Virus record (IMG/VR): IMGVR_UViG_3300031576_000071
Span: 1-49,476 of that record
Direction: 5' to 3' (one strand)
Source: a virus
DNA: 49,476 nucleotides
Positions 1 through 49,476 of the stretch are shown in pieces (the first letter of the stretch is position 1; each line of letters starts with the position of its first letter). Made by a program: the position numbers and the translations under genes. The notes beneath the pieces were generated by a model. That model was not told the DNA's origin. It did no database searches and saw only the letters and a list, made by a program, of their open reading frames with translations.

Positions 1-127
1 CCCGTCGGAGCCATCGCTCTCCGAGTTCGGCAGCGAGGTGGACGGCGAGGACCTGAGACTCATCTGCGAGGCAAGCCGGTCGGCCGCTCGCAGCGTGAAT
101 CGCGCCAGCGTGGCGGATCCGTAGGAC
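1..127. repeat. Terminal direct repeat, copy 1 (circle overlap)
   Basis: The first 127 bases are identical to the last 127 (49350-49476). The repeat lies inside one continuous reading frame (tail chaperone), and joining the copies restores that frame. The length of 127 is a common assembler k-mer size, so this is most likely an overlap of a circular contig and not a biological terminal repeat. Confidence 0.95.
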
Positions 128-627
128 CTCCACCACCTCGCTGGCAGTAGCCCTTTTCCCAGGTCGTCGAGAACCTCGTCGATCTTGGCCACGGTCAGGG
201 CCCCGGAGGACAAGGGCGAGCGCTCCTGCTGGTACTCGACGAGGAGGTCGAACAGGACGGCGATCTCGTCGGGCTGAAGGCGATGGAGCACCTCCCGTCC
301 ATCCTTCGCGAAGAGCGCGTCGGGTTGGTCGGGACAGACGAGGGACTTGGCAAGAATGAACGCCTTGCTCGCAAGCTCGATCGCCGAGCCGCCGAGCTCC
401 CCGAGCTGCAGCTCGTCCACGCGCCAGGCGAGCCCCTCGAGGAACTTCTTCGCCTCGGAGATCGCAACCTGCTGGTCCATCGCCGAGGGCGCACGCAACG
501 CCCAGCGCACGCCCTTGAAGCGCTCGCCGCACCCCTCGAACTCGAAGACCTTGTGCGGGATCGGTCCGCCGAAGAGCTTGGCGAGCCCGGACCCCGACAG
601 GAATCGCTCCGTCTCGTGGTCGCTCAC
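1..627 (-). CDS. Tail assembly chaperone, 5' part (gpG/GT-like, crosses circle junction)
   Basis: GTG start at 627 overlaps the tube-gene stop as GTGA. The frame is open to base 1 (209 codons) and continues across the junction to a TGA at 49320-49322, giving 218 residues. The protein begins MSDHETERFLSGSG, has an acidic alpha-helical body and a polar Ser/Pro-rich tail. Position (after the tube gene, before the tape measure), size and a slippery heptamer at codons 157-158 match the G/GT chaperones that coat the tape measure during tail assembly. A -1 shift gives a 231-residue product whose last 73 residues look like true coding sequence (see 154-160 and 49282-49476). The family name is inferred from context. 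Confidence 0.8.
   Translation of the reverse strand, partial: MSDHETERFLSGSGLAKLFGGPIPHKVFEFEGCGERFKGVRWALRAPSAMDQQVAISEAKKFLEGLAWRVDELQLGELGGSAIELASKAFILAKSLVCPDQPDALFAKDGREVLHRLQPDEIAVLFDLLVEYQQERSPLSSGALTVAKIDEVLDDLGKGLLPARWWRSYGSATLARFTLRAADRLASQMSLRSSPSTSLPNSESDGSDG
154..160 (-). other. -1 ribosomal frameshift heptamer GGGAAAA
   Basis: On the minus strand the bases read G GGA AAA in the chaperone zero frame (CTG GGA AAA GGG), a perfect X XXY YYZ slippery site of the lambda G-T kind. After slipping, reading continues AGG GCT ACT GCC and stays open for 73 codons to a TGA at 49284-49282. The -1 frame peptide is regular and helical (…LAAELGERWLRRDGQL…), unlike a random shadow. Confidence 0.8.
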
Positions 628-1001
628 GTCACGCCTTCGAGTTTCCCGTGATGCTCCCAGCTCGCCCCGTTGGGGTCACCGATCTTGGAGCTGAGGTCGC
701 CGCTGCGGATGTCCCCCTTGATGCGGTACCGCTTCCCGGCGATGACGTAGGTGAACTCGATCGTGGCCCGCGAGGCGATGGCCGCGATGAAGTCGAACTC
801 CAGCCCGCCGCTCGCCTCGGAGGGGACCGCGCTGGTCACCGACGCCACGAACTTGAGGACGCCCGGCGTGTGACCCGCGTGACCGTCGGCGAGCGTGTTC
901 ACGTCCTGGTTGCCGCTCTCGGGCTTGATCGAGATGGACTCCGCCTGGCGGAGCACGCGCCCCCGGTACTCGATCGAGCCCGGTCCTGAGTAGAGAGTCA
1001 T
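624..1001 (-). CDS. Tail tube protein (Mu gpM-like)
   Basis: 125 residues, starting MTLYSGPGSIEYRG. It lies directly downstream of the sheath gene and upstream of the chaperone, the fixed place of the tube gene in Mu-type myoviruses. The sequence is beta-rich with the repeated strand pattern of tube proteins (FDFIAAIASRATIEFTYVI) and a charged C-terminus. It would polymerise as the inner tube under the sheath. The stop overlaps the next start (GTGA). Assignment rests on synteny and length. Confidence 0.8.
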   Translation of the reverse strand: MTLYSGPGSIEYRGRVLRQAESISIKPESGNQDVNTLADGHAGHTPGVLKFVASVTSAVPSEASGGLEFDFIAAIASRATIEFTYVIAGKRYRIKGDIRSGDLSSKIGDPNGASWEHHGKLEGVT

Positions 1002-1015
1002 CGTTCAGCTCCTGT

Positions 1016-2620
1016 TCATCCGCCCGAGAGTTGCCGGACGTTGCCGCCGACGATGTGCACGCCCGGCATGGGCTCGCACGGGATCTCGCAGTCCACGCGA
1101 CCCACGACCGTGGGGTGCTCGACGACCGCGAGGTTGGGGAGGTTCGCGTCCACGTCCCGAATCCACCCGTCCGCCTCCCTGGCCTTGCTGTACGCATAGA
1201 TCAGGCTCTTGATCGCCTTCGGCGTGGTGACGTTCGATGCCTTGGGCACCGAGCCGTCCGCGCTGTCGCTCGCCAGCAGCGCGCCTGCCAGCTCGGTCGA
1301 GAGGAACGCCTGGAGACCGTCGGCGAATGCGTCGGTCACGGTGACGTTCGAGGAGTCGAGGACGGCGTAGTTGTTCACGCCGGACACCAGCGATCGGCTG
1401 GTAATCGAGCGGCAGATGGCAGCCTTGCCACCGGAGCCCGAGGGGATGAGCGGCGTGAGCCCGTTGGACAGGGCGCTCTGCTGCTCGGTCTGCGTCGGCC
1501 GGTCGGCCGGGAACCGCTGCGCGAGCACGCTCGCCATCTTCACCGAGTCGAGGTTCGCCGAGGGGGTGGTGGCCTCGCCGACCAGCACGCCGCCCGCGTT
1601 GCCATCACCGATGAGCCTCGCCGCGCCCATCTGCGCGGCGACCTCTTCGAGCGGCGTCGCTGTGGCGTGGTGCCAGACGATCTGGAGCCGGGATGCGTTG
1701 CGCCCCGTCGCCAGCGTCGTGCTCGTCGCGAGGGTTGCGTTCGTCGCGGCGATGGCTTGCTGCCGAAGCTGCGAAGCCACGCCCGCCTGGGCGTCGAGCT
1801 GGGTGACGACCGCGTCGAGCTGGGCAGCCACGCGGTGCGCGAGGGCGATCCGGTCGTACTTGCTCGCGTCGATCGCAGCGAGGACCGCCGTGAGGCTGTC
1901 GTCCGTCGCGCCCGCTGCGAGCGTGAACTCGGAGCCGATCGTGCCGTTCGCCGAGAGGATGCCTGTGGTCCCGAAGCCGCTCGATGTGCTCCCCGTGAGG
2001 ATGCGCGTCGCGACCCCGCTCGGGTTCACGAAGAACGCATCGACGGCGAGGTCGTTGCCTCGGGGTCCGCTGCACTTCGCGGTGAGCGTGAGGACGCCCA
2101 GGGCGAACTGCGCGGTGACGGGGAGGTCGGCCTCGTCGAGCAGCGCATCGGCGCAGCTCGTCGCGATCACCGTGGGCGTGTCGCCCGAAGCGACCGAGAC
2201 GTCGATCACCTTCCCGCCGATGAAGAACCGGATGCTGAACGCTCCGGTCGCCGTCGTCGCGAAGGTGTAGACCGCCGCTGCCTTCGTCCCCGCCTCGGCC
2301 GAAGAGATGCCTTCGAGCGTCGCATCGGGGTACTGCTTGAACGCAGCGACCGCCATCCGGTGCAGCTCCGAGCCGCGCCCGAACAGCGTGGCCGCGTCGT
2401 CTGGCGAGGGAATGACGATCGGGGAAGCGTCGCCCTGCGTTCCGGCTGTGACCGTGAACGAGGGCGCGGCACCCGAGAGGTTGCTCGTGATCTTGTTGCC
2501 GACGAGCAGGAGCTTCTTGCTCGCCTCGCCCGCGCTGGCTCCGGGGCCGCCGAGAACGACGGCGAGATGGACCTGGGGGACCTTCGCGGAGGCCGCGAGC
2601 CCAACAACGTTGATTCCCAT
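1016..2620 (-). CDS. Contractile tail sheath protein (Mu gpL-like)
   Basis: 534 residues starting MGINVVGLAASAKVPQVHLAVV. The N-terminal start-up strand, the central Ala/Thr-rich beta domain and the C-terminal half with KSLIYAYSKAREADGWIRDVDANLP fit a sheath subunit of the Mu gpL type. It shares an ATGA overlap with the DUF2635 gene upstream, as in Mu. The sheath wraps the tube and contracts to drive injection, which makes this phage a myovirus. Confidence 0.9.
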   Translation of the reverse strand: MGINVVGLAASAKVPQVHLAVVLGGPGASAGEASKKLLLVGNKITSNLSGAAPSFTVTAGTQGDASPIVIPSPDDAATLFGRGSELHRMAVAAFKQYPDATLEGISSAEAGTKAAAVYTFATTATGAFSIRFFIGGKVIDVSVASGDTPTVIATSCADALLDEADLPVTAQFALGVLTLTAKCSGPRGNDLAVDAFFVNPSGVATRILTGSTSSGFGTTGILSANGTIGSEFTLAAGATDDSLTAVLAAIDASKYDRIALAHRVAAQLDAVVTQLDAQAGVASQLRQQAIAATNATLATSTTLATGRNASRLQIVWHHATATPLEEVAAQMGAARLIGDGNAGGVLVGEATTPSANLDSVKMASVLAQRFPADRPTQTEQQSALSNGLTPLIPSGSGGKAAICRSITSRSLVSGVNNYAVLDSSNVTVTDAFADGLQAFLSTELAGALLASDSADGSVPKASNVTTPKAIKSLIYAYSKAREADGWIRDVDANLPNLAVVEHPTVVGRVDCEIPCEPMPGVHIVGGNVRQLSGG

Positions 2621-7049: not shown

Positions 7050-8289
7050 CGTTGTCTCCCTGCGCCGGTGGCGCGGGTGGAGGGGCAGGTGGCGGGGGCT
7101 TGCCGATCGAGAGGACCGGCAGGTTCACCCGCTCGGCGAGCGCGGCGAGATCGACTTCGACGCCCTCGGCTCGCCAAGCCGCGGCGGCCTTGGCAGCCGC
7201 GGTCCAGGTCGCCGCGACGGCCGCGAGGTCTTCGGGGATCTCCGCGTCCCACTTCGGCCACGGAGCCAGGTCGGCGCTCCCGTAGTTGAACAGCGCCCAG
7301 GGTTCGAGCACGTCCCGACGGAGCGCGGTCGCGAGGACCTGGGCGTCGGCCTGGAGCAGGTCGCTGCGAACTCGGTCGTGGACCTTCGCCGCGGCGAGGG
7401 ATCCGCCCTTGGTCTCCTGGGTAAGGTTCTGTCCCAGGATCGCGATGGAGGCGTCATCGGCGACCAGCCCGAGCAGCGACTGAAATCCCTTCCAGCCGTC
7501 GGACATCGCCTCGACGAGCGACACATCGAAGCTGGCCTCGGGAGACTCGCCGCGCGGAACCAGGAGCGTGGTGCCCCCGGAGCCGACGTTGGCGAGCGAG
7601 TCGTAGAAGCTGGCCTTGTCGTCCTCGCTCGCGCGAGCCGGCGTCTTCGCCAGGAGCATCGGTGTTCCGTGGCGCTCGGACCAGCGCGCCCAATCCTTCA
7701 CGGCCTCGGTGCGGATCTTGTCCTCGAGCCCGAGGCATCGGACCACGCCGCGCATCCAGGATCGACACGAGCTGTGGGACATCACGAGCCAGCGGCCGTC
7801 GCCCTGGATCACGGTCTCCACGCCGCTCGACGTAGACACCTGCCACGCGCGAAGCGTCTCGTCCCACCACAGGAGCGACGCGGGCACCGGATACAGCCGC
7901 GGGGTCCACGCGGACCCGGTCGTCGTCCAGACGATCTCGGCGACGCCCACGCCCACGCTGACCGCGGAGCGGAGCAGCTCGGCGAGCACGTCCTCGGGGG
8001 CGATGTCGTAGAAGACCTTCTTCAGGTCCTTCGCGACGCCCTTGGCGCGGCGCTGATCGCCGTCCTCGGCGGGTTCGATTTCGAGAGGGAGCGCGCTGAG
8101 GGCCAGGGTGCGGGTCTGGAGCGCCGCGAAGATCCGGGGGTTGCGCTCGAGGTTGTCCGCGAGGACCGAGGAGCGCGAGAGGTCTCCTCGCTCGTGGGCA
8201 GTCAGCGCGCCTCGGACGGCCGCGACGGTCCAGCGCGAGAGCTGCTCGGGTGCCCAGAGGCGCAGGCGTTCGCGTCGAGGGGCTACCAC
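7024..8289 (-). CDS. Portal protein (DUF935, Mu gp29-like)
   Basis: About 421 residues from a GTG at 8289 that overlaps the terminase stop (GTGGTAG); upstream codons are in the terminase shadow and are left out. Typical DUF935 features include NPRIFAALQTRTLAL, AEIVWTTTGSAWTPR, DKIRTEAVKDWARWSERHGTPM and ILGQNLTQETKGGSLAAAKVH. The tail ends in a Pro-rich linker. It is shorter than Mu gp29 (about 510). The portal forms the dodecameric DNA gate. Confidence 0.88.
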   Translation of the reverse strand: MVAPRRERLRLWAPEQLSRWTVAAVRGALTAHERGDLSRSSVLADNLERNPRIFAALQTRTLALSALPLEIEPAEDGDQRRAKGVAKDLKKVFYDIAPEDVLAELLRSAVSVGVGVAEIVWTTTGSAWTPRLYPVPASLLWWDETLRAWQVSTSSGVETVIQGDGRWLVMSHSSCRSWMRGVVRCLGLEDKIRTEAVKDWARWSERHGTPMLLAKTPARASEDDKASFYDSLANVGSGGTTLLVPRGESPEASFDVSLVEAMSDGWKGFQSLLGLVADDASIAILGQNLTQETKGGSLAAAKVHDRVRSDLLQADAQVLATALRRDVLEPWALFNYGSADLAPWPKWDAEIPEDLAAVAATWTAAAKAAAAWRAEGVEVDLAALAERVNLPVLSIGKPPPPAPPPAPPAQGDNDGNQTSNP

Positions 8290-18853: not shown

Positions 18854-19867
18854 TCACGGCACCGTCTCCACCATCGCCCGCACCTGGCGACCCAGGGCCG
18901 CATCGGCCGCGAACCGATCGAGCCCGCCGTGGGCGTCGATGAGTCCCGCGAGGTTGGCCAGGTCCGACAGACGCAGGTCGGACGCGGGCGACGTGGCGCT
19001 CGGGCGTCCCTGCCCTTGCCCCTTCTGCCGCTTCGGGCCGAGCCGTCGTGCGGCTTCCGTTTTCGGCGCGGACCTCGGCGTCCCCGCCGCTGCAACGAGG
19101 TCGGCTGCGACGAGCGCTCCGATCCTCCCTCCCTGGGCGAGCTTGGTGATCGTCGACTTGGCAACGCCGGTCGCTCGCGCGACCGCCGCCGCCGAGCCGT
19201 GCTCGACGAGCAGCGCAGCGTACGCTCGCTTCGCCTCCGCGGACTGCTCAGCGCTCGCGGATCGCGTCGAGCGTCGGGGTGTGGTGTGGGCCGGCCGCTC
19301 TGGCGCGAGTGCCGGAGACTCTCCTGCGGCTGCGGAGATGACGGCGCTCGCAATCGTCTCGCCGCACCGGCCGGTACGCCGAAGCGCACCCAGCGGCGAG
19401 TTGTTCAGCCCGCACGCCTTCGCGGCAGCGAACACCGACCCGTGCCGCGCGACGAGCACGTCGAGCGCGCGCACAGCGTCCGCCTGCAGCTCGGGGCTCG
19501 CGCTCCGGGTGCTGTGCTTCGTCTTCGCCTCGGGCACCGAGGCCGCCGCGGCCGACGCCGCGGGCTCCGGCGGAGGGGGCTCGGGCCGCGGGCTCGGTTC
19601 GGGTGCTGCGGGTGGGGCCGCGGTGGCCTCCGTGCTCGCTGGGGCCAGTGCTGGGTGCCTCCCCTCGCGCATCGCCTTGTTCACCGCGGACTGCTGGCTC
19701 TTGTCGGTGCGGAGATGAAACTCCAGCACCGCGCCGTCCTTCACGATGTGAGCGCCTCGACCGGCAGAGCGCATCGCCCGAGCGGCGTCGCCCTTCTCGG
19801 CGTACCGCCCGAGAACCTCGATGGTCCCCTTGGGCTGGATCACACAGGTCGTGTAGGAGCCGCTCAC
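18854..19867 (-). CDS. Double-HTH protein
   Basis: 337 residues from a GTG at 19867 overlapping the ParB-like stop (GTGA). The middle holds two copies of an HTH (LDVLVARHGSVFAAAKACGL… and YAALLVEHGSAAAVARATGV…), separated by about 60 residues; a Pro/Ala/Glu linker precedes them. The N-domain binds something unknown. Being coupled to a ParB-like gene, it may be a DNA-binding partner. Confidence 0.65.
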   Translation of the reverse strand: MSGSYTTCVIQPKGTIEVLGRYAEKGDAARAMRSAGRGAHIVKDGAVLEFHLRTDKSQQSAVNKAMREGRHPALAPASTEATAAPPAAPEPSPRPEPPPPEPAASAAAASVPEAKTKHSTRSASPELQADAVRALDVLVARHGSVFAAAKACGLNNSPLGALRRTGRCGETIASAVISAAAGESPALAPERPAHTTPRRSTRSASAEQSAEAKRAYAALLVEHGSAAAVARATGVAKSTITKLAQGGRIGALVAADLVAAAGTPRSAPKTEAARRLGPKRQKGQGQGRPSATSPASDLRLSDLANLAGLIDAHGGLDRFAADAALGRQVRAMVETVP

Positions 19868-21585
19868 CGCGCACCGCCCTTCTTGGCTGGGGACCTCGCG
19901 GGCTTCTTCTTCGCCGCCGAGGGCTTCTTTGTCGATGGCTTCGTCGCGGAGGCCTTCGCGGGGACCTTCGCGACAGGTACCTTGCTCTCCGTCGCGATGG
20001 CCGCCGTTGTCTCGGCAGCGATCTTCACGGGGTCCGCCCCGACCTTCTTGAGCAGCTTGCCGAGCGGGGTCTTCGCCAGGTCCTCGGGGGCGGGATCGTC
20101 GTATTCCTGCACTGCCGCGATCCGAAGGAGCAGCGCCGCGCGGACGAGCTCGGGCTCCTTCGCAGCGTCGAGGTGCTTGACGAGCGCGGCTTCGTCCTTC
20201 AGCCCGAGGACCCCGCAGGCCTCCCCGGACGTCGCCATGTCCATCGCGCCCCGCGCGAACTCTCGGAGCACGTCGAGCGCCGTCGCCTTCGACGACCCGT
20301 AGCTGGCCCGCGTGAGCAGCGCGACGCGATGACGTCGCTCGCTCTCCCGCTCCTGCTTCCACTTGTTGGCGGCATCGCTCGGTGCCTTGCTCTCCTTGCC
20401 CTTGCGGGGCGGTCCCGCGCTGCTCGTCGCGAGGTCGGTCTCTGCCTTCGAGGCCCACGCGTACCCCGCAGCGAGCAGCGCCTTCGCGGCTCCGTCCTTG
20501 GTCGCGAGCTCCCGCGGGGTGCCTGTCGGATCGACGGCGATCGCGACCGTCATCGGGTCGAGCCGCTCGCCCACGAGTTGCCACCAGAGCCCCCCGTCCG
20601 GATCCTCGATGCAGTGCTCGTCCAGGTCGATGAACTGCGCGCCGTACGTGACTCCGTGGGGCTCCCAGGTCTGAAACAGCGCCTTGGCTTCCCGCTCGCC
20701 CAGCAGCCGCGCACCGCGCGCCTTCCAGTCCTCGATGCGCCGCTCCTTGGCAGCGCGACCCTTGCGGCCGAAGCACTCGCCGTCGAGGCATGTGTCGTCC
20801 GCCTCGAGGTCTGCGAACAGCCCGGGCTGCGTGCCGGTGCGCTTCGGGCAGCTCGCGCACGACCCGGCCTCGACGACGAGCTGCGCGTCGTCCATCTCCC
20901 ACCGCGCGTCCGCGAGGCGCAGGAAGTAGCGCGACCGAATCTCCTCGATGATCCTCTTCGCGGACAGCTCTCTCTCCCAGCTCTGCCGAGGCCGGAGGAT
21001 CTCCGCGAGCGCCTCGCTCTGCATCGTCGGTCTCGGGAGTCGCGAGAGCTCGAAGGCCACCCCGAGCGCGAGCTTGTCCTCGAGCAGCGCGGCCTTGGCC
21101 TCGGGCACCAGCGCGGTCAGCGAGAGTCTCTGGTGCACCAGGGCCTGGCTCTTCCCGACCTTCCGCGCGATCTGCGGGGCGGTCTGGCGATGCTCGTCAC
21201 GCAGCCTCCGGTACGCCTCGCCCTCGTCGAGGGGGTGGACGTCCTGTCGCTGTGCGTTCTCGACGAGCTGCAGCTCGAGCACGGCGAGGTCGTCGAGCGA
21301 GTCGTCGATCACGCACGGGACCTCGTCCATCCCGACGGCCTGCGCGGCGCGGAAGCGTCGGTGGCCGGTGACGATCTCGTAGATGGGCTCGTCGCCGGGC
21401 AGCCGTCGCACCAAGAGCGGGTGCTCCTGGCGGAAGCCCTGGGCGCACATCGAGGCATGCAGGCCCTCGAGGTCACCCCAGGACGACGACGCGCGGGGGT
21501 TGGATGGGCTCTCGCGCAGCCATCGCGTCGGGAGCTGTTGCGCGGGGCGCAGTGCGTGAACGGGCGGTTCGGTTCCGTCGGCCAT
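19864..21585 (-). CDS. ParB-like nuclease-domain protein
   Basis: 573 residues; AGGAGG 8 bases before ATG 21585. N-terminal ParB/Srx domain: NPR near 29-31, ETGHRRFRA-like VTGHRRFRAAQAVG (72-86) and LVENAQRQDVHPLDEGEAY, then an HTH (APQIARKVGKSQALVHQRL). A middle CASCPKRTG…CLDGECFGRK resembles the zinc-like segment of ParB-like proteins in phages and plasmids. The Lys/Pro/Ala C-tail is histone-like. Possible partition or replication role. Confidence 0.82.
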   Translation of the reverse strand: MADGTEPPVHALRPAQQLPTRWLRESPSNPRASSSWGDLEGLHASMCAQGFRQEHPLLVRRLPGDEPIYEIVTGHRRFRAAQAVGMDEVPCVIDDSLDDLAVLELQLVENAQRQDVHPLDEGEAYRRLRDEHRQTAPQIARKVGKSQALVHQRLSLTALVPEAKAALLEDKLALGVAFELSRLPRPTMQSEALAEILRPRQSWERELSAKRIIEEIRSRYFLRLADARWEMDDAQLVVEAGSCASCPKRTGTQPGLFADLEADDTCLDGECFGRKGRAAKERRIEDWKARGARLLGEREAKALFQTWEPHGVTYGAQFIDLDEHCIEDPDGGLWWQLVGERLDPMTVAIAVDPTGTPRELATKDGAAKALLAAGYAWASKAETDLATSSAGPPRKGKESKAPSDAANKWKQERESERRHRVALLTRASYGSSKATALDVLREFARGAMDMATSGEACGVLGLKDEAALVKHLDAAKEPELVRAALLLRIAAVQEYDDPAPEDLAKTPLGKLLKKVGADPVKIAAETTAAIATESKVPVAKVPAKASATKPSTKKPSAAKKKPARSPAKKGGAR

Positions 21586-21608
21586 GGGCGGGTCCTCCTG
21601 AGTGCGGA

Positions 21609-21977
21609 TCAGTTCGTCGGGCTTGCGCCGGGCAACTCGCCCTGGCGCTCCTCGTTGGTCATCGAGCGGCTGGTCACGCGCTCGCCCGTGTCGCAGCGGA
21701 GCAGGTTCATCACGAGGCGCACCGGGTCGGGCTCCCAGCGGCACTCGACATCCTGGAACTCCTCGCCGCTCTTCACGGCGCGAGACAGCTCGCGGATCCG
21801 CGCGTTGGCCTGGTCGAGCTCGACCTTCGCTTCGGAGGCGGAGGCCTTCTTCGCGGCGTCGATTCGGTCGTGCTCCTCGATGGTGGCGGCGAGCTCCTTC
21901 GCACGCTCCGCCACCTCCTCGCGGGTGAGCTTCACGGGCAGCTTGAGGATCTCGGACTTCGTCGGTTCGGTCGTCAT
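21609..21977 (-). CDS. Hypothetical coiled-coil protein
   Basis: 122 residues starting MTTEPTKSEILKLPVKLT. A long charged helix (EEVAERAKELAATIEE … VELDQANARIRELSRA) forms a coiled coil; the C-terminal CRWEPDPVRLVMNLLRCDTGE part is a small beta unit. Between ParB-like and exonuclease genes in one operon. Function unknown. Confidence 0.65.
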   Translation of the reverse strand: MTTEPTKSEILKLPVKLTREEVAERAKELAATIEEHDRIDAAKKASASEAKVELDQANARIRELSRAVKSGEEFQDVECRWEPDPVRLVMNLLRCDTGERVTSRSMTNEERQGELPGASPTN

Positions 21978-21998
21978 GGGGGGTCTCCTGGGGTGGTG

Positions 21999-23258
21999 TC
22001 AGAGGGCGAGCGACGCGGAGCCCCCGAGCCCCCGCAGTCGCCGGTAAATCTCGATTGTCGCGGCCACGTCCCCCGCGGCGCGGTGCGCCTGGTGCCCCAC
22101 CCCGAAGTGCTGTCGCAGGCTCTCCAGCGAGCAGCTCTCGACGAGCAGCGCCCCGCGTTTCTTGGCAGCCCTCGCGAGCTTCAGCGTACACAGCGGCTCG
22201 GCTTCGAGTTCGACGGGGACCGCGATTCCCACGCGGCCGCAGGCGGCCCGCAGAAAGCCCGCATCGAAGCCGACGTTGTGTCCGGCGAGCCGTCGGCCAC
22301 GCAGTCGCTCGATCGCCCGTGCGAGCACGAGCCTCATCGGCTTGGCCGCTCGGGCGAACGCGCTCGCTCGCCAGTCGATCCCGTGCACCGCCATCGCCCG
22401 GAGGTCTCGGACCGACCAGGGTTCGAGCCCGACGAGCACCGCGGCCGGCGCTCGGAGCACTGCGCCCGAGAGGTCCGTGATGGCGACCGCGAACTCGATG
22501 ATCTGGTGCTGCGCCGCGCTCTGCCCGGTGGTCTCGCAGTCCACCCAGAGCAGCTCGGGTGAGGTCGGCGAGGTCACCTCTGCGACCGCCGCGTCTGCCA
22601 ACGCGCGCCACTCTGGCGAGAGGGAGGACGAAGGCGCGGGCGCTTCCGCCTCTGCGACCGCTGCGATCGCAGCATCCGCCGCCTCGTGCCACGCCGCCGA
22701 GGGGCTCTTGTCGTCGCACTGCCCCGGCCGGTACGCGGCCCACACGGCGCGCTGCAGGTCGGCAGGGACCATGCGCCAGTGCGGTCCGCACATCAGGCGC
22801 TCCGGCGGACACGGCGCCCGACATCCCCGAGCATGACAGCGGTGGGCGGGGGAAGCCTCGGCTCCTTTCGCTCGGACGTGGCGCGGGCGGGACCGGGATC
22901 GCAGTGCCTCGCACGAGGGCAGCCCCTCGGCGCGAGGCGGATCGACAAACGCAGGGATCCCGAGCGCCGGTGCCCAGCTCGACGCAGACCACCCGCGTGG
23001 CTGCGCCGGGTGCTCGATCGCTCCGCCCTGCCCCGAGGCGTCGCGGTACACGATCACCTCTGCGGTCACGACGAGCACGGCGAGGGGACGACCGACAGCC
23101 GAGAGCAGCTCGTGTCCGCGCGCTGCTCGCTCCTCGGCGGTGGCGAGCAGCTCGTGCTCGAGCGAGCCGATCGGACCCTCCGGCCACCCGAGCTCGAGCG
23201 CGCGGGTCTGCCAGTCCTGCACGAGCGGACCGCACCAGCTCCGATCGCTCACGAGCAT
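21999..23258 (-). CDS. DnaQ-like 3'-5' exonuclease fusion protein
   Basis: 419 residues. The C-terminal third is an epsilon-type exonuclease: LWVDCETTGQ (Asp 240, Glu 242), GHNVGFDAGFL and HRAAGDVAAT (ExoIII His/Asp). Residues about 141-200 contain CHARGC…LMCGPHWRMVP…AWHEAADAAIAA, a small phage/plasmid domain with paired Cys. Residues 1-100 are a separate module of unknown type. Likely proofreading or nucleolytic role in replication. Confidence 0.78.
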   Translation of the reverse strand: MLVSDRSWCGPLVQDWQTRALELGWPEGPIGSLEHELLATAEERAARGHELLSAVGRPLAVLVVTAEVIVYRDASGQGGAIEHPAQPRGWSASSWAPALGIPAFVDPPRAEGLPSCEALRSRSRPRHVRAKGAEASPAHRCHARGCRAPCPPERLMCGPHWRMVPADLQRAVWAAYRPGQCDDKSPSAAWHEAADAAIAAVAEAEAPAPSSSLSPEWRALADAAVAEVTSPTSPELLWVDCETTGQSAAQHQIIEFAVAITDLSGAVLRAPAAVLVGLEPWSVRDLRAMAVHGIDWRASAFARAAKPMRLVLARAIERLRGRRLAGHNVGFDAGFLRAACGRVGIAVPVELEAEPLCTLKLARAAKKRGALLVESCSLESLRQHFGVGHQAHRAAGDVAATIEIYRRLRGLGGSASLAL

Positions 23259-23494
23259 CGCGCCCCCGCATGTGCGGCGGCGAAGCGCGCGGCCTGCGCC
23301 CGGATCTCCGCCGGGTCGCTCGCGAAGGGCTCGCTGCGGTCGCAGCGCGGACAGTGCCAGGCGCAGACGGCCGGCGCTCGGGACTCGGAGCGCTGCCGAG
23401 CTTGCTCGAGCAGGCGCTCGGCCTTGTCCCGCGCGAGGCTGTCTCGCAGCGCGTCGCGGAGCGGGCCCCGGGGTAGCTCGAGCAGGGCACTCAC
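23249..23494 (-). CDS. Small Cys-containing hypothetical protein
   Basis: 81 residues from a GTG at 23494 (GTGA overlap with the gene before). Helical N-half, then CAWHCPRCDRS, a probable zinc knuckle. Overlaps the exonuclease start by 10 bases. Function unknown. Confidence 0.55.
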   Translation of the reverse strand: MSALLELPRGPLRDALRDSLARDKAERLLEQARQRSESRAPAVCAWHCPRCDRSEPFASDPAEIRAQAARFAAAHAGARCS

Positions 23495-36095: not shown

Positions 36096-36189
36096 TGTAC
36101 CGTCGCCACCACGCGAGCAGCCTCGTCCCCTCGTGCTCAACGATCGCGAGGACCAGGCACCACGCGAGTCGGAGGGCCGCGGTCAGCAC
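36082..36189 (-). CDS. Candidate 35-residue membrane peptide
   Basis: GTG 36189 overlaps the DUF6527 stop (GTGCTGA). Reads MLTAALRLAWCLVLAIVEHE, one hydrophobic helix, then basic residues. Possible small lysis-cluster membrane peptide. Confidence 0.4.
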   Translation of the reverse strand: MLTAALRLAWCLVLAIVEHEGTRLLAWWRRYSDGP

Positions 36190-36521
36190 GGCTCGAAGAC
36201 CCCGCTGCGGAGATACCCGTGCCACCCACAGCCGCCCTTCGCAGTGTCGTGCAGGATCGACGGCGCGAGCGTGACGCTCTCGGGCCTCGCGAGATCGCCC
36301 TCGATCACGCTCCACTGCGGATGCCCTCCGCGAGCACCCGCGAAGTCCAGCGACACGGGCCTCCCGCACCCTGCGCAGGAGTGGATGTAGCCGGTGACGC
36401 GTGCCGGGTCATCGCGGTGGATCACGGGCACGACGTCGCCGGGCTCGGGCGCGTCGCCGAAGATCGCGCTCACGCTCGCGAGCCGCGCAGGCACGCGGCA
36501 CCGGAGGTCTAGCGCGGTCAT
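36183..36521 (-). CDS. DUF6527 family protein
   Basis: 112 residues starting MTALDLRCRVPARLASV. CAGCGRPVSLDF…HPQWSVIEGD…SVTLAPSIL…GGCGWHGYLRSGV matches DUF6527, which has Cys and His that may bind zinc. ATGA overlap with the preceding endolysin-like gene. Family function unknown; often found in phage lysis regions. Confidence 0.75.
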   Translation of the reverse strand: MTALDLRCRVPARLASVSAIFGDAPEPGDVVPVIHRDDPARVTGYIHSCAGCGRPVSLDFAGARGGHPQWSVIEGDLARPESVTLAPSILHDTAKGGCGWHGYLRSGVFEPC

Positions 36522-37492
36522 GGTCGCTCGAACCCCGCGGCACCCAAGGTCCCCCACCCGCACACCCCATCGACTTGCGGTCCCACGAGCCCGAGCTCGC
36601 GCTGCCAGCTCTTGACGCACTCGGTCGGCTCGCGTCCCTCGGGAGCGTGACCCCCGGCGATCATCCGGCCTACCGCCGACAGACACGACGCGGTCACCGC
36701 CCAGGGCTCGCCGCGGAACTCCGCGTCGAACCACAGCACGTTCGCCCGGTCGCGCACCGTGAGCAGCGCATCCACGAGGTCCTGTGGCCGCTGCGCGTGC
36801 CCATACCCCTGGAGGGTCCAGGAGTGCGGGCGCTCCAGATCGAGGCGCGCGAGCGAGGCGTCGTGCTTCGCCCAGTCCCGATCGCTCCACCGCCGACAGC
36901 GCCCGTAGGCGTCCCGGCCCTTGAGGTTGCGGAAGTAGAGCTGGCGGATACGGCAGTCCACGAAGCTCGCGAACTCGTCGCTCGGGAAGCCCGCGAAGGT
37001 CCCGCCCTCGCCCAGGGGCTTGGCGGTCTTTCTCTCGTCCCCGTGGCTCTCGATCGCGAACCAGGGCTGGTCCCCGAGGATGATCGAGGGGGCGAGCTTC
37101 CGCAGCTCCTCGCCCAGCTCGAGCGCGCCCTTCTCGTCGGTCTCGTCCTCGGGGCCGGTGTCCACGTCCCACTGGCCCTCGGCGTCGAGCAGCCCGAACG
37201 CGAGGCCGGGTGTACCCGCGAGCAGCTCGCCGATCTTCCGGCCCTTGTCCTTCGCCTTGCCCCCACCGTCGAGCCCGAACGAGAACGCGAACGCCACACC
37301 CTCGGCGCGTGCCATCGCCGCACCGCGTCGGAGCCCCTCGCGTCCACCGTGGAAGACCACGCCCGGGAGCCCGAGCCGCTTGGCCCACAGGATCATGGTG
37401 CGCGTCTCGGCCTCACCTCGCATCGAGCCGAGGTAGAGCTGGAGCCAGGTGCCCTTCGCGATCGGCACGTCCCAAGGCTTGCCGGGGATCAC
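36518..37492 (-). CDS. Endolysin-like glycosidase with C-terminal peptidoglycan-binding motif
   Basis: 324 residues from GTG 37492 (GTGA overlap). TIM-barrel-like alternation with LGLPGVVFHGGREGLRRGAAMARA, VAFAFSFGLDG, FGLLDAEGQWDVD, VDCRIRQLYFRN and LWFDAEFRGEP; the end SWQRELGLVGPQVDGVCGWGTL resembles a PG-binding repeat. Acidic Asp/Glu at strand ends suit a glycoside hydrolase. Lysis role inferred from context. Confidence 0.6.
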   Translation of the reverse strand: MIPGKPWDVPIAKGTWLQLYLGSMRGEAETRTMILWAKRLGLPGVVFHGGREGLRRGAAMARAEGVAFAFSFGLDGGGKAKDKGRKIGELLAGTPGLAFGLLDAEGQWDVDTGPEDETDEKGALELGEELRKLAPSIILGDQPWFAIESHGDERKTAKPLGEGGTFAGFPSDEFASFVDCRIRQLYFRNLKGRDAYGRCRRWSDRDWAKHDASLARLDLERPHSWTLQGYGHAQRPQDLVDALLTVRDRANVLWFDAEFRGEPWAVTASCLSAVGRMIAGGHAPEGREPTECVKSWQRELGLVGPQVDGVCGWGTLGAAGFERP

Positions 37493-46333: not shown

Positions 46334-46909
46334 ATGAGTCCAGAGACCAAGGACCTGATGAAGCTGCTCGGGACGGGGCTCGCGATCGGCGCGCTCGCCT
46401 GCGTCGGTGCCATGACCTGGGCGGTGTGGAGCGGCGATCCGCCGCGACGGCCAGAGACAGAATCGAACATCCCCTCTGCGCCCCCTGTCTCGATCGCTTT
46501 CGAGACGACCGACGCCAGCGCTGATGCCCCGTCGCGAAGGCTCTCGCCTACGTCGCCCCGCCAAACGCCGCACGAGGGGTGCTTCGTTCGCCCGGCGGGC
46601 GCGAGCAGCGAGGGGGCTTGGTGCACATGGACCGAGACTACGTCGCCCTCGAGCTACACCTGCGAGACTACCCTCGTCGGCTGCGAGGCCGCGCGCGCCA
46701 CGCTGCTCGAAATCGAGCGCGAGTTCCCCTCTGATCCCGGTCAGCCGTCGCGGGTGCCCGAGTTGTGTACGCGGAGGACTGGCGCGTTTTGCACCGACCT
46801 GGGCGACGGCTGGGCGAACCGCCAGTGCCGCGCGCGCCGGGAGCAGTGCGAGGCGTTGCGTCCTCAGCACTCCGACGCAACCCGCTGCGTGCATCGCCCT
46901 ACGTTCTAA
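46334..46909 (+). CDS. Plus-strand Cys-rich exported protein (moron)
   Basis: 191 residues; GAGG 6 bases before the ATG. N-terminal helix LLGTGLAIGALACVGAMTWAV is a signal anchor; then a disordered Ser/Pro stretch and a Cys-rich domain with about 9 Cys (CFVRPAG, WCTWTE, CETTLVGC, CTRRTGAFC, CRARREQC, CVH) likely disulphide-bonded outside the membrane. It stands opposite to all virion genes around it. May alter the lysogen's surface. Its end overlaps the tape-measure end by 4 bases. Confidence 0.75.
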   Translation: MSPETKDLMKLLGTGLAIGALACVGAMTWAVWSGDPPRRPETESNIPSAPPVSIAFETTDASADAPSRRLSPTSPRQTPHEGCFVRPAGASSEGAWCTWTETTSPSSYTCETTLVGCEAARATLLEIEREFPSDPGQPSRVPELCTRRTGAFCTDLGDGWANRQCRARREQCEALRPQHSDATRCVHRPTF

Positions 46910-48909
46910 CGACTCGGATTCCCGGGCTGTCCTTGCAGCGCCGTCCTCGCTGCGTGCGCGGCGTCTTGAGGCGCGACGGTAGCGGTCATGGTGCCCATGC
47001 CCTCGCGTACCGCTCCGGTGAGCGCCTCGCGGAGAGCGTTGATCGTGTCGGTGTCGAGCGAGACGGGGCGGTCTACGTTGATCCCGTGCTGCTGAGCGTT
47101 CCTGACGAGCTCCTCCGTGCGACCCTGAATCTCGCGGTCCGCGTTCGCCTGCATCCGCTCGCCGCCCACTGCGGTTGCGATTGCGCCGCCGATCCAGTCG
47201 AGCGGGTTCGCGGACTCCTGCCATGCGTTTCGTCGGCCGAGCACCTCGGTCTCCGCTTGCTGGCGAAACAGGTCCCGGCGCGTTCGGACCTCGGCGCTGC
47301 TGCCGTGGACTCCCATACCCTGCACCGAGGCCCGACCCGCGCCGAGTAGGTCCATCCCCCCCCGAGTTGCCGAGTTGTCGAGCAGTCGCCCGATAAGCGG
47401 GCTGGTCGTCTTGATGTCGTCGATCGTGCGCTGGTTCTCTGAAGCCCAGTCGTTCTGTTGATTCGCTTGCGACCAGAACAGCCGCGCTTCTCGTTGGGCG
47501 TCCCGACTCGCCTGAGTCTGCATCGCATCCCGCGAGGCACGCGCCGTGTCCTCGGGACTCCCGGTGATCCCAGCGTCTACCAGTTGCCGAAAGTCGGTGG
47601 CGCGCCCGCCGTGTGCCTGCATGTCGCGGAAGAGTTGGTCGGTGAGCGCGCGCGACCGGGTGTTGACTCCGCCGACTGCGACGCCGAATCGCGAGGCGTT
47701 CCCGCCGCTCGCGCGGAAGGCGTCCTCGAAGAGTCGCGCGAGGGCGTCGGATTGCGTCTCGCCCTCGCGGGATCGAAGCTGGCCGGTGCTGTTGAAGGCG
47801 TTGCGTCCGATCAGCTCGCGGAGCCGTCCGCGCCCTCGGTCGGAGCTGAAGTTGTCGAGGAAGGCTCGCGCTCGCGTCGCCGACACATCCCCGCCCCCGC
47901 CGCCCTTTCCCGCCGTCTGAAACAGGGCACCGACGACGGAGCTGGAGCGCATCCGGTTCTCTGCGTTGGTCGAGAGAAATCGAGAGCCGCCGCCCAGCAA
48001 GACCCCCGCATGGCGCGCGGAATCTTTAAACGAGATGGAGCCGAGCCGTCCCTGGGCGATCTGGCCAGCGACTGCTCGCGGAAGCTCGGCCGCCGAGATG
48101 TTCATCTGGCGCTGGTACTCGCCGGTCGCGTCGACCATGTCTTCGAGCTTGGTCCCCGTTGCGACCGCGGCGTTGGCGAGTTGGGGAAGCACTTGGGTTA
48201 GGTACGTTGCGCGCGAGGCGGAGTCCCCAAGCGCCGAGAAGCTGGCTTGGGCGCGCTCTAGCCCGCTCAGCACGTCCGCTGCGTCGATCCCCGTCCGCAC
48301 GTTCGTGCTCTGGACGGCGGCCATGATTTCTCGCTGGGCTCCCGGGGTCCTCAACTCGCTGGACGCGAGTACCTGAGCCCGATGACTGAGCGCCGCGCGC
48401 TGGCGCGCTGCGGCTCGTAGGTCGTCGCCGTAGCCCTGGAAGAACGTGAGTCCCCGCTCAGCCAGACCGACGGCGTCGCCGCCTCCGCCTCCGCCACTCT
48501 GCCGCTCGCGCCGAGCTGTAGCCTGCGTGCCTCGACGCGCGGACTCGACCCTGCGACGCGCGAGCCGCTCGACGGTCGAGGTCAAGCGCTGCTCGTCGCG
48601 AATCGCCTCGTCGGTCCCGCGCTTGCGAAATGCCGCGACGGCCGACGACTCGGTCCGAGCGGCGTTCGTTCGCACCTTCGCGGCGGCCTGCACGGTCTGG
48701 GTGTACCGGCGCTCTTCGACGGCGAGGCTCGCGTACGCGCGGCGGACTTCGGCCGATCCCTTCTTTGCGTCCGCGGCGGCACCCGACCACACCTTGCTGA
48801 ACTCCCCCCGCATCGCACGCGCCACCGTCCGCGCTGCGCCTGGCAGCGTGTTCAGGGCAGCGATGACCGAGGTCGTGTCACCGACCAGCTCGAAGACTGC
48901 GCGTGCCAT
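46906..48909 (-). CDS. Tail tape measure protein
   Basis: 667 residues starting MARAVFELVGDTTSVIAALNTL. Long Ala/Gln/Arg-rich helices with coiled-coil (EVRRAYASLAVEERRYTQTVQAAAK; EAIRDEQRLTSTVERLARRR), a Gly-rich hinge and C-terminal helices. Largest virion gene after the chaperone, as expected. By the usual 0.15 nm per residue the tail would be about 100 nm. Confidence 0.85.
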   Translation of the reverse strand: MARAVFELVGDTTSVIAALNTLPGAARTVARAMRGEFSKVWSGAAADAKKGSAEVRRAYASLAVEERRYTQTVQAAAKVRTNAARTESSAVAAFRKRGTDEAIRDEQRLTSTVERLARRRVESARRGTQATARRERQSGGGGGGDAVGLAERGLTFFQGYGDDLRAAARQRAALSHRAQVLASSELRTPGAQREIMAAVQSTNVRTGIDAADVLSGLERAQASFSALGDSASRATYLTQVLPQLANAAVATGTKLEDMVDATGEYQRQMNISAAELPRAVAGQIAQGRLGSISFKDSARHAGVLLGGGSRFLSTNAENRMRSSSVVGALFQTAGKGGGGGDVSATRARAFLDNFSSDRGRGRLRELIGRNAFNSTGQLRSREGETQSDALARLFEDAFRASGGNASRFGVAVGGVNTRSRALTDQLFRDMQAHGGRATDFRQLVDAGITGSPEDTARASRDAMQTQASRDAQREARLFWSQANQQNDWASENQRTIDDIKTTSPLIGRLLDNSATRGGMDLLGAGRASVQGMGVHGSSAEVRTRRDLFRQQAETEVLGRRNAWQESANPLDWIGGAIATAVGGERMQANADREIQGRTEELVRNAQQHGINVDRPVSLDTDTINALREALTGAVREGMGTMTATVAPQDAAHAARTALQGQPGNPSR

Positions 48910-48912
48910 GAG

Positions 48913-49263
48913 TCAGCCCGCCTTCGCCCGGTCTCGCATCCGCGCTACGACCGCGGGCCGCCTGCGTCGAGCCTCGCGGTACGCGAGTCCGAACCAGGCG
49001 CTCGCGAGCGCACTCACCACCGTGAGCGACACGAGCAACGCGACGGCCACGGTCTTCGAGGGCGGCGAGCTGAGCCACGTCGTCACGAGCGAGACCAGCG
49101 CGCCCGCGCTGAAGGTGAGGAAGCCGAGGGCGCGAGATTCTTCGGAGACGGCAGCGTCGAGAGCGTCCAGGTCCATATCGAGCACCTCGTACGTGTCGAT
49201 CCCCTTGATGCGATGAAGCCGCACCTGGGGGACCGACTGAAGAGTCTGTGGCCGATCGGTCAT
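48913..49263 (-). CDS. Small two-helix membrane-type tail-region protein
   Basis: 116 residues starting MTDRPQTLQSVPQVRLHR. Two hydrophobic helices (ALGFLTFSAGALVSLVTTWL; TVAVALLVSLTVVSALASAWFGL) and a basic tail. It lies between the chaperone and tape measure genes, an unusual place for a membrane protein; may be a superinfection or injection factor. Confidence 0.65.
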   Translation of the reverse strand: MTDRPQTLQSVPQVRLHRIKGIDTYEVLDMDLDALDAAVSEESRALGFLTFSAGALVSLVTTWLSSPPSKTVAVALLVSLTVVSALASAWFGLAYREARRRRPAVVARMRDRAKAG

Positions 49264-49281: not shown

Positions 49282-49476
49282 TCACCGACGGGGGAGCGAC
49301 TTGAGCACTTGCGCGAGCGTCAGGGCGACGACGGCGGGGAGTTGTCCGTCCCGTCGGAGCCATCGCTCTCCGAGTTCGGCAGCGAGGTGGACGGCGAGGA
49401 CCTGAGACTCATCTGCGAGGCAAGCCGGTCGGCCGCTCGCAGCGTGAATCGCGCCAGCGTGGCGGATCCGTAGGAC
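49282..49476 (-). CDS. Tail assembly chaperone, 3' part (zero frame to 49320; -1 frame to 49282)
   Basis: Continuation of the gene that starts at 627. Zero frame ends TDNSPPSSP at TGA 49322-49320. The -1 frame, entered at GGGAAAA (160-154), runs through DESQVLAVHLAAELGERW and LTLAQVLKSLPRR to TGA 49284-49282. Bases 49350-49476 repeat 1-127. Confidence 0.78.
   Translation of the reverse strand, partial: VLRIRHAGAIHAASGRPACLADESQVLAVHLAAELGERWLRRDGQLPAVVALTLAQVLKSLPRR
49350..49476. repeat. Terminal direct repeat, copy 2 (circle overlap)
   Basis: Exact copy of bases 1-127. Position 49350 is equivalent to position 1; the unique genome is 49,349 bp. Confidence 0.95.

Follow-up and report, generated by a model that had tools for sequence, protein, structure and literature searches.

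A conserved GGGAAAA in the tail assembly chaperone gene of an uncultured contractile-tailed phage group points to a lambda G/GT-type −1 frameshift with a long frame-0 overlap

The analysed stretch of viral DNA, referred to as the window, comprises 49,476 bases with a GC content of 70% and carries an exact 127-base repeat at both ends. The gene under study encodes a putative tail assembly chaperone and lies between the tail tube and tape measure genes (Table 1), which is the position required for a chaperone gene of the lambda G/GT type. Its GTG start codon overlaps the stop codon of the tube gene (GTGA). An ORF bearing DUF2635 is also found among its neighbours, and the window further contains genes for baseplate, portal, terminase, and major head proteins. 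The gene order is as in SfV and Mu. In the related viral loci described below the order is sheath, tube, chaperone, and tape measure, and the window has one extra ORF of 116 amino acids before the tape measure gene. The second half of this ORF is hydrophobic. Its site is empty in most relatives, with gaps of 1–19 nt, and HK97 carries a moron gene at the matching position. Two further ORFs on the minus strand were noted. In the 1208-aa ORF at 19864–23490, residues 651–834 match a ParB N-terminal and HTH domain, and the long stretch ahead of them could belong to a different gene or stem from a wrongly called start. The ORF at 36183–37388 carries a C-terminal DUF6527.

Table 1. Features of the chaperone locus and its surroundings, numbered from the first base of the window
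Feature	Position	Strand	Remarks
End repeat	1..127 = 49350–49476	.	identical; the contig closes into a circle midway through the chaperone gene
Slippery heptamer GGGAAAA	154..160	-	read G GGA AAA in frame 0; a −1 slip would give GGG AAA
Tail assembly chaperone gene, frame 0	1..627	-	GTG start at 627; resumes at 49349 past the contig ends; 218 aa
End of the frame-0 ORF past the contig junction	49320..49349	-	stop ends at 49320
−1 extension, first part	1..154	-	codon 1 is AGG at 154–152
−1 extension, second part	49282..49349	-	stop ends at 49282
Weak SD-like ACGAGGTT, candidate stimulator	172..179	-	11 nt upstream of the heptamer, −6.6 kcal/mol
Stretch with both frames apparently constrained in relatives (~26 codons)	76..153	-	frame-0 predicted helix, residues 171–192
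Tail sheath	1016..2620	-	phrog_165, E 4.5e-62
Probable tail tube gene	624..1001	-	by position, same as in SfV and Mu; no match in PHROG/Pfam
Tape measure protein	46906..48909	-	phrog_794, E 0.00048 (weak), and position
116-aa ORF between chaperone and tape measure	48913..49263	-	no clear family

The plus strand reads TTTTCCC at the slip site, which corresponds to GGGAAAA on the minus strand. This is the single phase-correct X XXY YYZ heptamer in the chaperone gene, and no second GGGAAAA is present on either strand of the 49,349 unique bases. A −1 slip at this site would lead into 73 further codons and to a product of 231 aa, which shares its first 158 residues with the unshifted product of 218 aa. 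The downstream ORF begins 18 nt past the −1 stop. These frames agree with the original prediction, which had proposed a GGGAAAA in exact X XXY YYZ phase, a 73-codon −1 frame with a 231-residue product, and an end shortly before the following gene, all in a gene spanning the contig ends. Absent from it were the 60 codons (180 nt) for which frame 0 stays open beyond the heptamer in the window and with which the 218-aa product ends. In the window, the −1 frame is also open over the 157 codons that precede the heptamer. The open −1 frame was rejected as evidence of frameshifting, since the whole gene is open in this frame, and the window alone thus represents weak evidence.

None of the profile libraries names the chaperone gene. 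The family scans gave nothing significant, the Pfam scan gave no match, and the best matches to chaperone families, phrog_2792 and phrog_344, had E values of 0.045–0.29 and appeared in one or two of the related proteins. A sequence search of solved structures returned unrelated weak matches only, and a profile comparison with the HK97, Mu, lambda, and ST405phi1.1 proteins gave no match. The identification as a tail chaperone, already made in the original prediction, is instead supported by the gene order in the relatives and by the predicted fold. Of the 37 distinct complete sequences, 22 went into structure input A7 and 19 into A8. Since the gene crosses the contig ends, the models are partial and cover 209 of the 218 frame-0 residues and 64 of the 73 residues of the −1 tail (from 49282–49476). 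The predicted frame-0 model has a mean pLDDT of 76.6, with values up to 95 in the N domain, and ends in a helix (residues 171–192) followed by disorder. The HK97 tail assembly chaperone 2ob9 ranked first in the Foldseek search with the N domain (residues 8–134). The comparison of the two gave a Z score of 9.8 over 104 aligned residues, with an rmsd of 4.5 and 12% identity, and the next structure, YqbN, reached 6.6. This suggests that the N domain has the chaperone fold which the G/GT type requires. The −1 tail is predicted to form a small helical domain (pLDDT 84.7), for which the fold search gave no match with an E value under 1.9.

A search with the single chaperone protein sequence gave no match in phage records or viral contigs. 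Alignments of the sheath protein led to 67 viral loci and a chaperone search to two more contigs, so that 69 loci were scanned. The search of genome contigs with the sheath alignment, which was run twice, gave no match and thus no evidence of a host or a prophage. The chaperone ORF was found in 53 of the 69 loci; in the other 16, the contig breaks off inside the sheath match or no more than ~460 nt beyond it. One of the 53 ORFs (L062) stops short of the heptamer, which leaves 52 usable loci, and another locus (L050) is cut 82 nt past the heptamer and was excluded from the analyses of the tail. All 52 loci that extend over the heptamer position, and also the window, carry GGGAAAA at the same place. 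Some of the loci repeat one phage from different samples, and therefore lineages rather than loci were taken as the unit. Including the window, there are 38 distinct 180-nt contexts, which fall into 16 lineages under 90% identity. The heptamer is kept even in L065–L067, in which the sheath identity is 31%. Both of the codons that make up the slip site are otherwise scarce: apart from the heptamer itself, 37 N domains use GGA for 17 of 310 glycine codons and AAA for 17 of 219 lysine codons. The sequences thus point to a conserved slippery heptamer in the X XXY YYZ phase, as the G/GT type requires.

Coding constraint on the −1 frame was assessed from the variation by codon position in close pairs of sequences and from parsimony counts on a tree of a 26-sequence clade. 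In the close pairs, the codons upstream of the heptamer change mostly at the third position of frame 0. In codons 28–55 of the tail, the third position of the −1 frame is the most variable (0.152 vs 0.035 and 0.020). Codons 2–27 show low variation throughout, with the highest value at the third position of frame 0 (0.070 vs 0.028 and 0.038). The changes per codon position in the clade were 21/11/70 in frame 0 upstream of the heptamer, 32/20/28 in the −1 codons 2–26, which is flat (P 0.25), and 14/11/52 in the −1 codons 27–48, which is a clear −1 coding pattern. In a further test, the codons of eight diverse genes were re-drawn, seven of which were long enough for the second part of the tail. 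Conservation of the −1 frame exceeded what frame 0 forces, with z 4.3 in the first 26 codons and z 10.2 in the next 20, compared with upstream control values of 0.5 and 2.2 (−1 frame) and −0.3 and 1.8 (+1 frame). These patterns argue firmly for the −1 frame after the heptamer being protein-coding, and it appears to encode the conserved protein extension that the G/GT type requires. The original prediction was to be given up if either the heptamer or the −1 frame lacked conservation in relatives; both are conserved there, the heptamer invariantly and the −1 frame under coding constraint, and the frameshift reading is thus well supported.

The frame-0 tail is long not only in the window. Of the 37 distinct complete contexts, 36 have their frame-0 stop 47–69 codons (141–207 nt) past the heptamer; in L065 the distance is 30 codons (90 nt). 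The short frame-0 tail, which is usual though not defining in the known cases, is absent here. The tail could be passively open and meaningless, in which case the low wobble variation in its first 26 codons would reflect an RNA frameshift signal. Openness as such is not significant: no frame-0 stop was found in the first 26 codons of the eight diverse genes against a null mean of 1.4, but 333 of 2,000 null runs were also free of stops. The end of the tail is of low complexity and predicted to be disordered, which also fits a passive tail. Against this explanation, no conserved downstream RNA structure was found in the 16 lineages, where three pairs were detected and none was compensatory. The overlap is also most variable at the third position of frame 0, as a frame-0 protein predicts, its GC content by position tracks frame 0, and Leu174 of frame 0 is invariant in 22 of 22 sequences. 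Selection on the frame-0 tail is further supported by its predicted helix at residues 171–192 and by the rate of −1 wobble changes, which in codons 2–26 is half that in codons 27–48 (P 0.0015). It is weakened by the total number of changes per codon, which is hardly lower in the overlap (3.2) than upstream (3.4) or downstream (3.5), and by pairs under 60% identity, in which the phase signal is absent. In the re-draw test, frame 0 was conserved beyond what the −1 frame forces, with z 4.1 in the first part. A z of 3.3 was also reached in the second part, although no constraint on frame 0 is visible there from the codon phase, and the null is therefore lenient. We consider a passive frame-0 tail possible but rather unlikely. 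The first ~26 frame-0 codons past the heptamer are likely to be selected themselves; the support for this is moderate, given the lenient nulls. With similarly moderate support, the slip would pick between two conserved C-termini, and not between a stop and an extension.

The −1 frame might also be a separate small overlapping gene with its own start codon, expressed with no frameshift. The −1 frame of some genomes does contain start codons, in the window at tail codons 7, 8, and 66 and in others at codon −25 or tail codon 30, but they occupy no common place. A stop codon immediately ahead of the heptamer interrupts the −1 frame in 21 of the 37 genes. None of these 21 has an ATG, GTG, or TTG in the −1 frame between this stop and tail codon 30, yet the residues encoded there are conserved. 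Separate initiation therefore cannot produce the conserved start of the tail in these genes. It would also leave the invariant heptamer unexplained, and we regard this explanation as highly improbable. The least credible explanation is that a GC-rich gene, from which the frame-0 protein alone is made, carries both the heptamer and an open −1 frame by chance: stops are rare at 70% GC, the −1 frame of the window is open gene-wide, and some phase-correct X XXY YYZ heptamer appears in about half (10,307 of 20,000) of the synonymous re-draws of the gene with phage codon usage, but GGGAAAA itself appears in just 70 of 20,000, and conservation, seen in the heptamer of every relative and in the −1 codon-phase pattern of the second part of the tail, refutes chance in practice.

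It is thus very probable that the gene is a tail assembly chaperone gene with a −1 frameshift of the lambda G/GT type at GGGAAAA, leading to products of 218 aa and 231 aa. As judged from the sequence, this putative frameshift is located in a contractile-tailed phage with a Mu/SfV-like gene order. We infer that most ribosomes keep the frame and produce the 218-aa protein, and that a minority slip one base back on GGGAAAA to give the 231-aa protein with a different C-terminal domain. If the roles are those of lambda G and GT, both products would coat the tape measure protein with their shared N domain, and the less frequent one would recruit tail tube subunits through its −1 domain.

The end of frame 0 may have a further function in many of the relatives. 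Among the 16 lineages, L020 and L065 were excluded from this analysis as no tape measure start was found in them, and the window and L003 were excluded because their tape measure start lies >40 nt beyond the −1 stop. In 10 of the 12 testable lineages, the frame-0 stop lies between a 1-nt overlap with the tape measure start and 26 nt before it (null mean 6.8, P 0.003). In some lineages the stop and the start are merged as TAATG or TAGTG. Six of the ten fitting lineages have a null probability of at least 0.82, and the signal is thus carried only by L005, L007, L015, and L023. In L011 and L053 the frame-0 stop does not fit such coupling. In the window, frame 0 does not end at the tape measure start, and the 116-aa ORF intervenes. 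The position of the stop suggests that the two genes may be translationally coupled in many relatives. The combined proposal has in our estimation about an even chance of being correct: the same ~80 bases would encode two selected C-terminal domains, namely a helix in the unshifted product and a helical domain in the shifted one, and the abundant unshifted product would be translationally coupled to the tape measure protein. If this is true, the 'G' product is more than a truncated 'GT'.

A dnaX-type frameshift signal consists of an SD-like element ~10 nt upstream of the slip site and a downstream stem-loop. An SD-like element at a spacing of 10–12 nt scores better than the synonymous null across the 16 lineages (z about −2.6) and is a weak candidate for a frameshift stimulator. 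It is not found in every lineage: the best spacing is 21 nt in five of the 16, 24 nt in two, and 15 nt in one. A downstream RNA structure was rejected as a stimulator; single-sequence z scores ranged from −2.4 to +0.7 in nine sequences. Thus, with the SD-like element missing at this spacing from some lineages and with no conserved stem, a signal of the dnaX type was not found. One clade, which contains many of the loci L004–L060, carries GTAGCTGA directly before the heptamer (for example at 7451–7458 in L004 and 7450–7457 in L022). This sequence places stops in both the −1 and the +1 frames just ahead of the heptamer in that clade.

PMC5009743 describes low-level −1 frameshifting at the G/GT position as a widely conserved trait of long-tailed phages, and a passage in PMC3711429 gives measured efficiencies of 6–7% for HK97-like chaperone genes. 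Among the papers listed in literature searches on tail-chaperone frameshifts, the titles and abstract openings describe neither this phage group nor two conserved C-termini. The uncultured contractile-tailed group formed by the window and the 52 loci would join the phages with frameshifting tail chaperones. The passages on the predictor PRFect state a mean distance from the heptamer to the frame-0 stop of 26 nt in the SEA-PHAGES training set and of 36 nt in the Xu set. Some of the Xu cases lie above 30 nt, so that long overlaps are not unheard of, and of 43 genomes in one viral test set whose distance exceeds 51 nt, only 2 were detected. As predictors rely on the frame-0 stop being close, they would probably miss long-overlap sites like the GGGAAAA described here. 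If both C-termini are functional, these phages provide a natural experiment on what the unshifted chaperone requires past the slip site.

The same heptamer is named in descriptions of two actinobacterial phages: GGGAAAA is given as the slip site of TM4 (PMC4626039, with the gene unnamed in the passage) and of the chaperone gene of the siphophage Bush (PMC11749239). The HK97 protein gp13 (2ob9) has the N-domain fold predicted here, and a −1 frameshift is annotated for it. No X XXY YYZ heptamer is located at the end of its gene and its only heptamers lie far upstream, for which reason HK97 does not serve as a yardstick of distance. Neither does Mu, since a scan of gp41 found no strict heptamer. 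Klebsiella phage ST405-OXA48phi1.1, with a sheath of 30% identity and a Mu-like gene order, has between its tube and tape measure genes a gene with an A AAA AAG heptamer, in contrast to GGGAAAA here, and frame 0 is open for 90 nt beyond it. Its 68-codon −1 tail ends at the base preceding the tape measure start, and the gene is annotated as two hypothetical proteins. This chaperone gene (L017, 6456–6668 of MK388859.1) probably contains an unannotated frameshift at A AAA AAG.

The contractile-tailed phages P2 (E/E+E′) and SfV (orf13) share with the present group the order of sheath, tube, chaperone, and tape measure genes. Their −1 extensions comprise 57 and 53 codons, respectively, and their heptamers are T TTT TTG and T TTT TTC instead of GGGAAAA; the −1 slip in SfV is not annotated and was read from the sequence in this analysis. 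Frame 0 stops 18 nt past the heptamer in P2 and 9 nt past it in SfV, compared to 141–207 nt in all but one of the contexts here. The original prediction stated that the site matches the lambda G/GT design. This holds for the mechanism and the location: lambda also slips by −1 on a G GGA AAN heptamer between the tail tube and tape measure genes, and its two products share an N domain to which a −1 extension is added. It does not hold for the overlap, as frame 0 ends 15 nt past the heptamer in lambda and 180 nt past it in the window, where the first part is apparently selected. The −1 part comprises 144 codons in lambda and 73 in the window, and lambda is a siphophage, whereas the phage described here has a contractile tail. 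In the yardsticks lambda, P2, and SfV, frame 0 runs only 3–6 codons past the slip site. The present phages appear to depart from all three in their long frame-0 overlap and in the conservation of both alternative ends in the same DNA.
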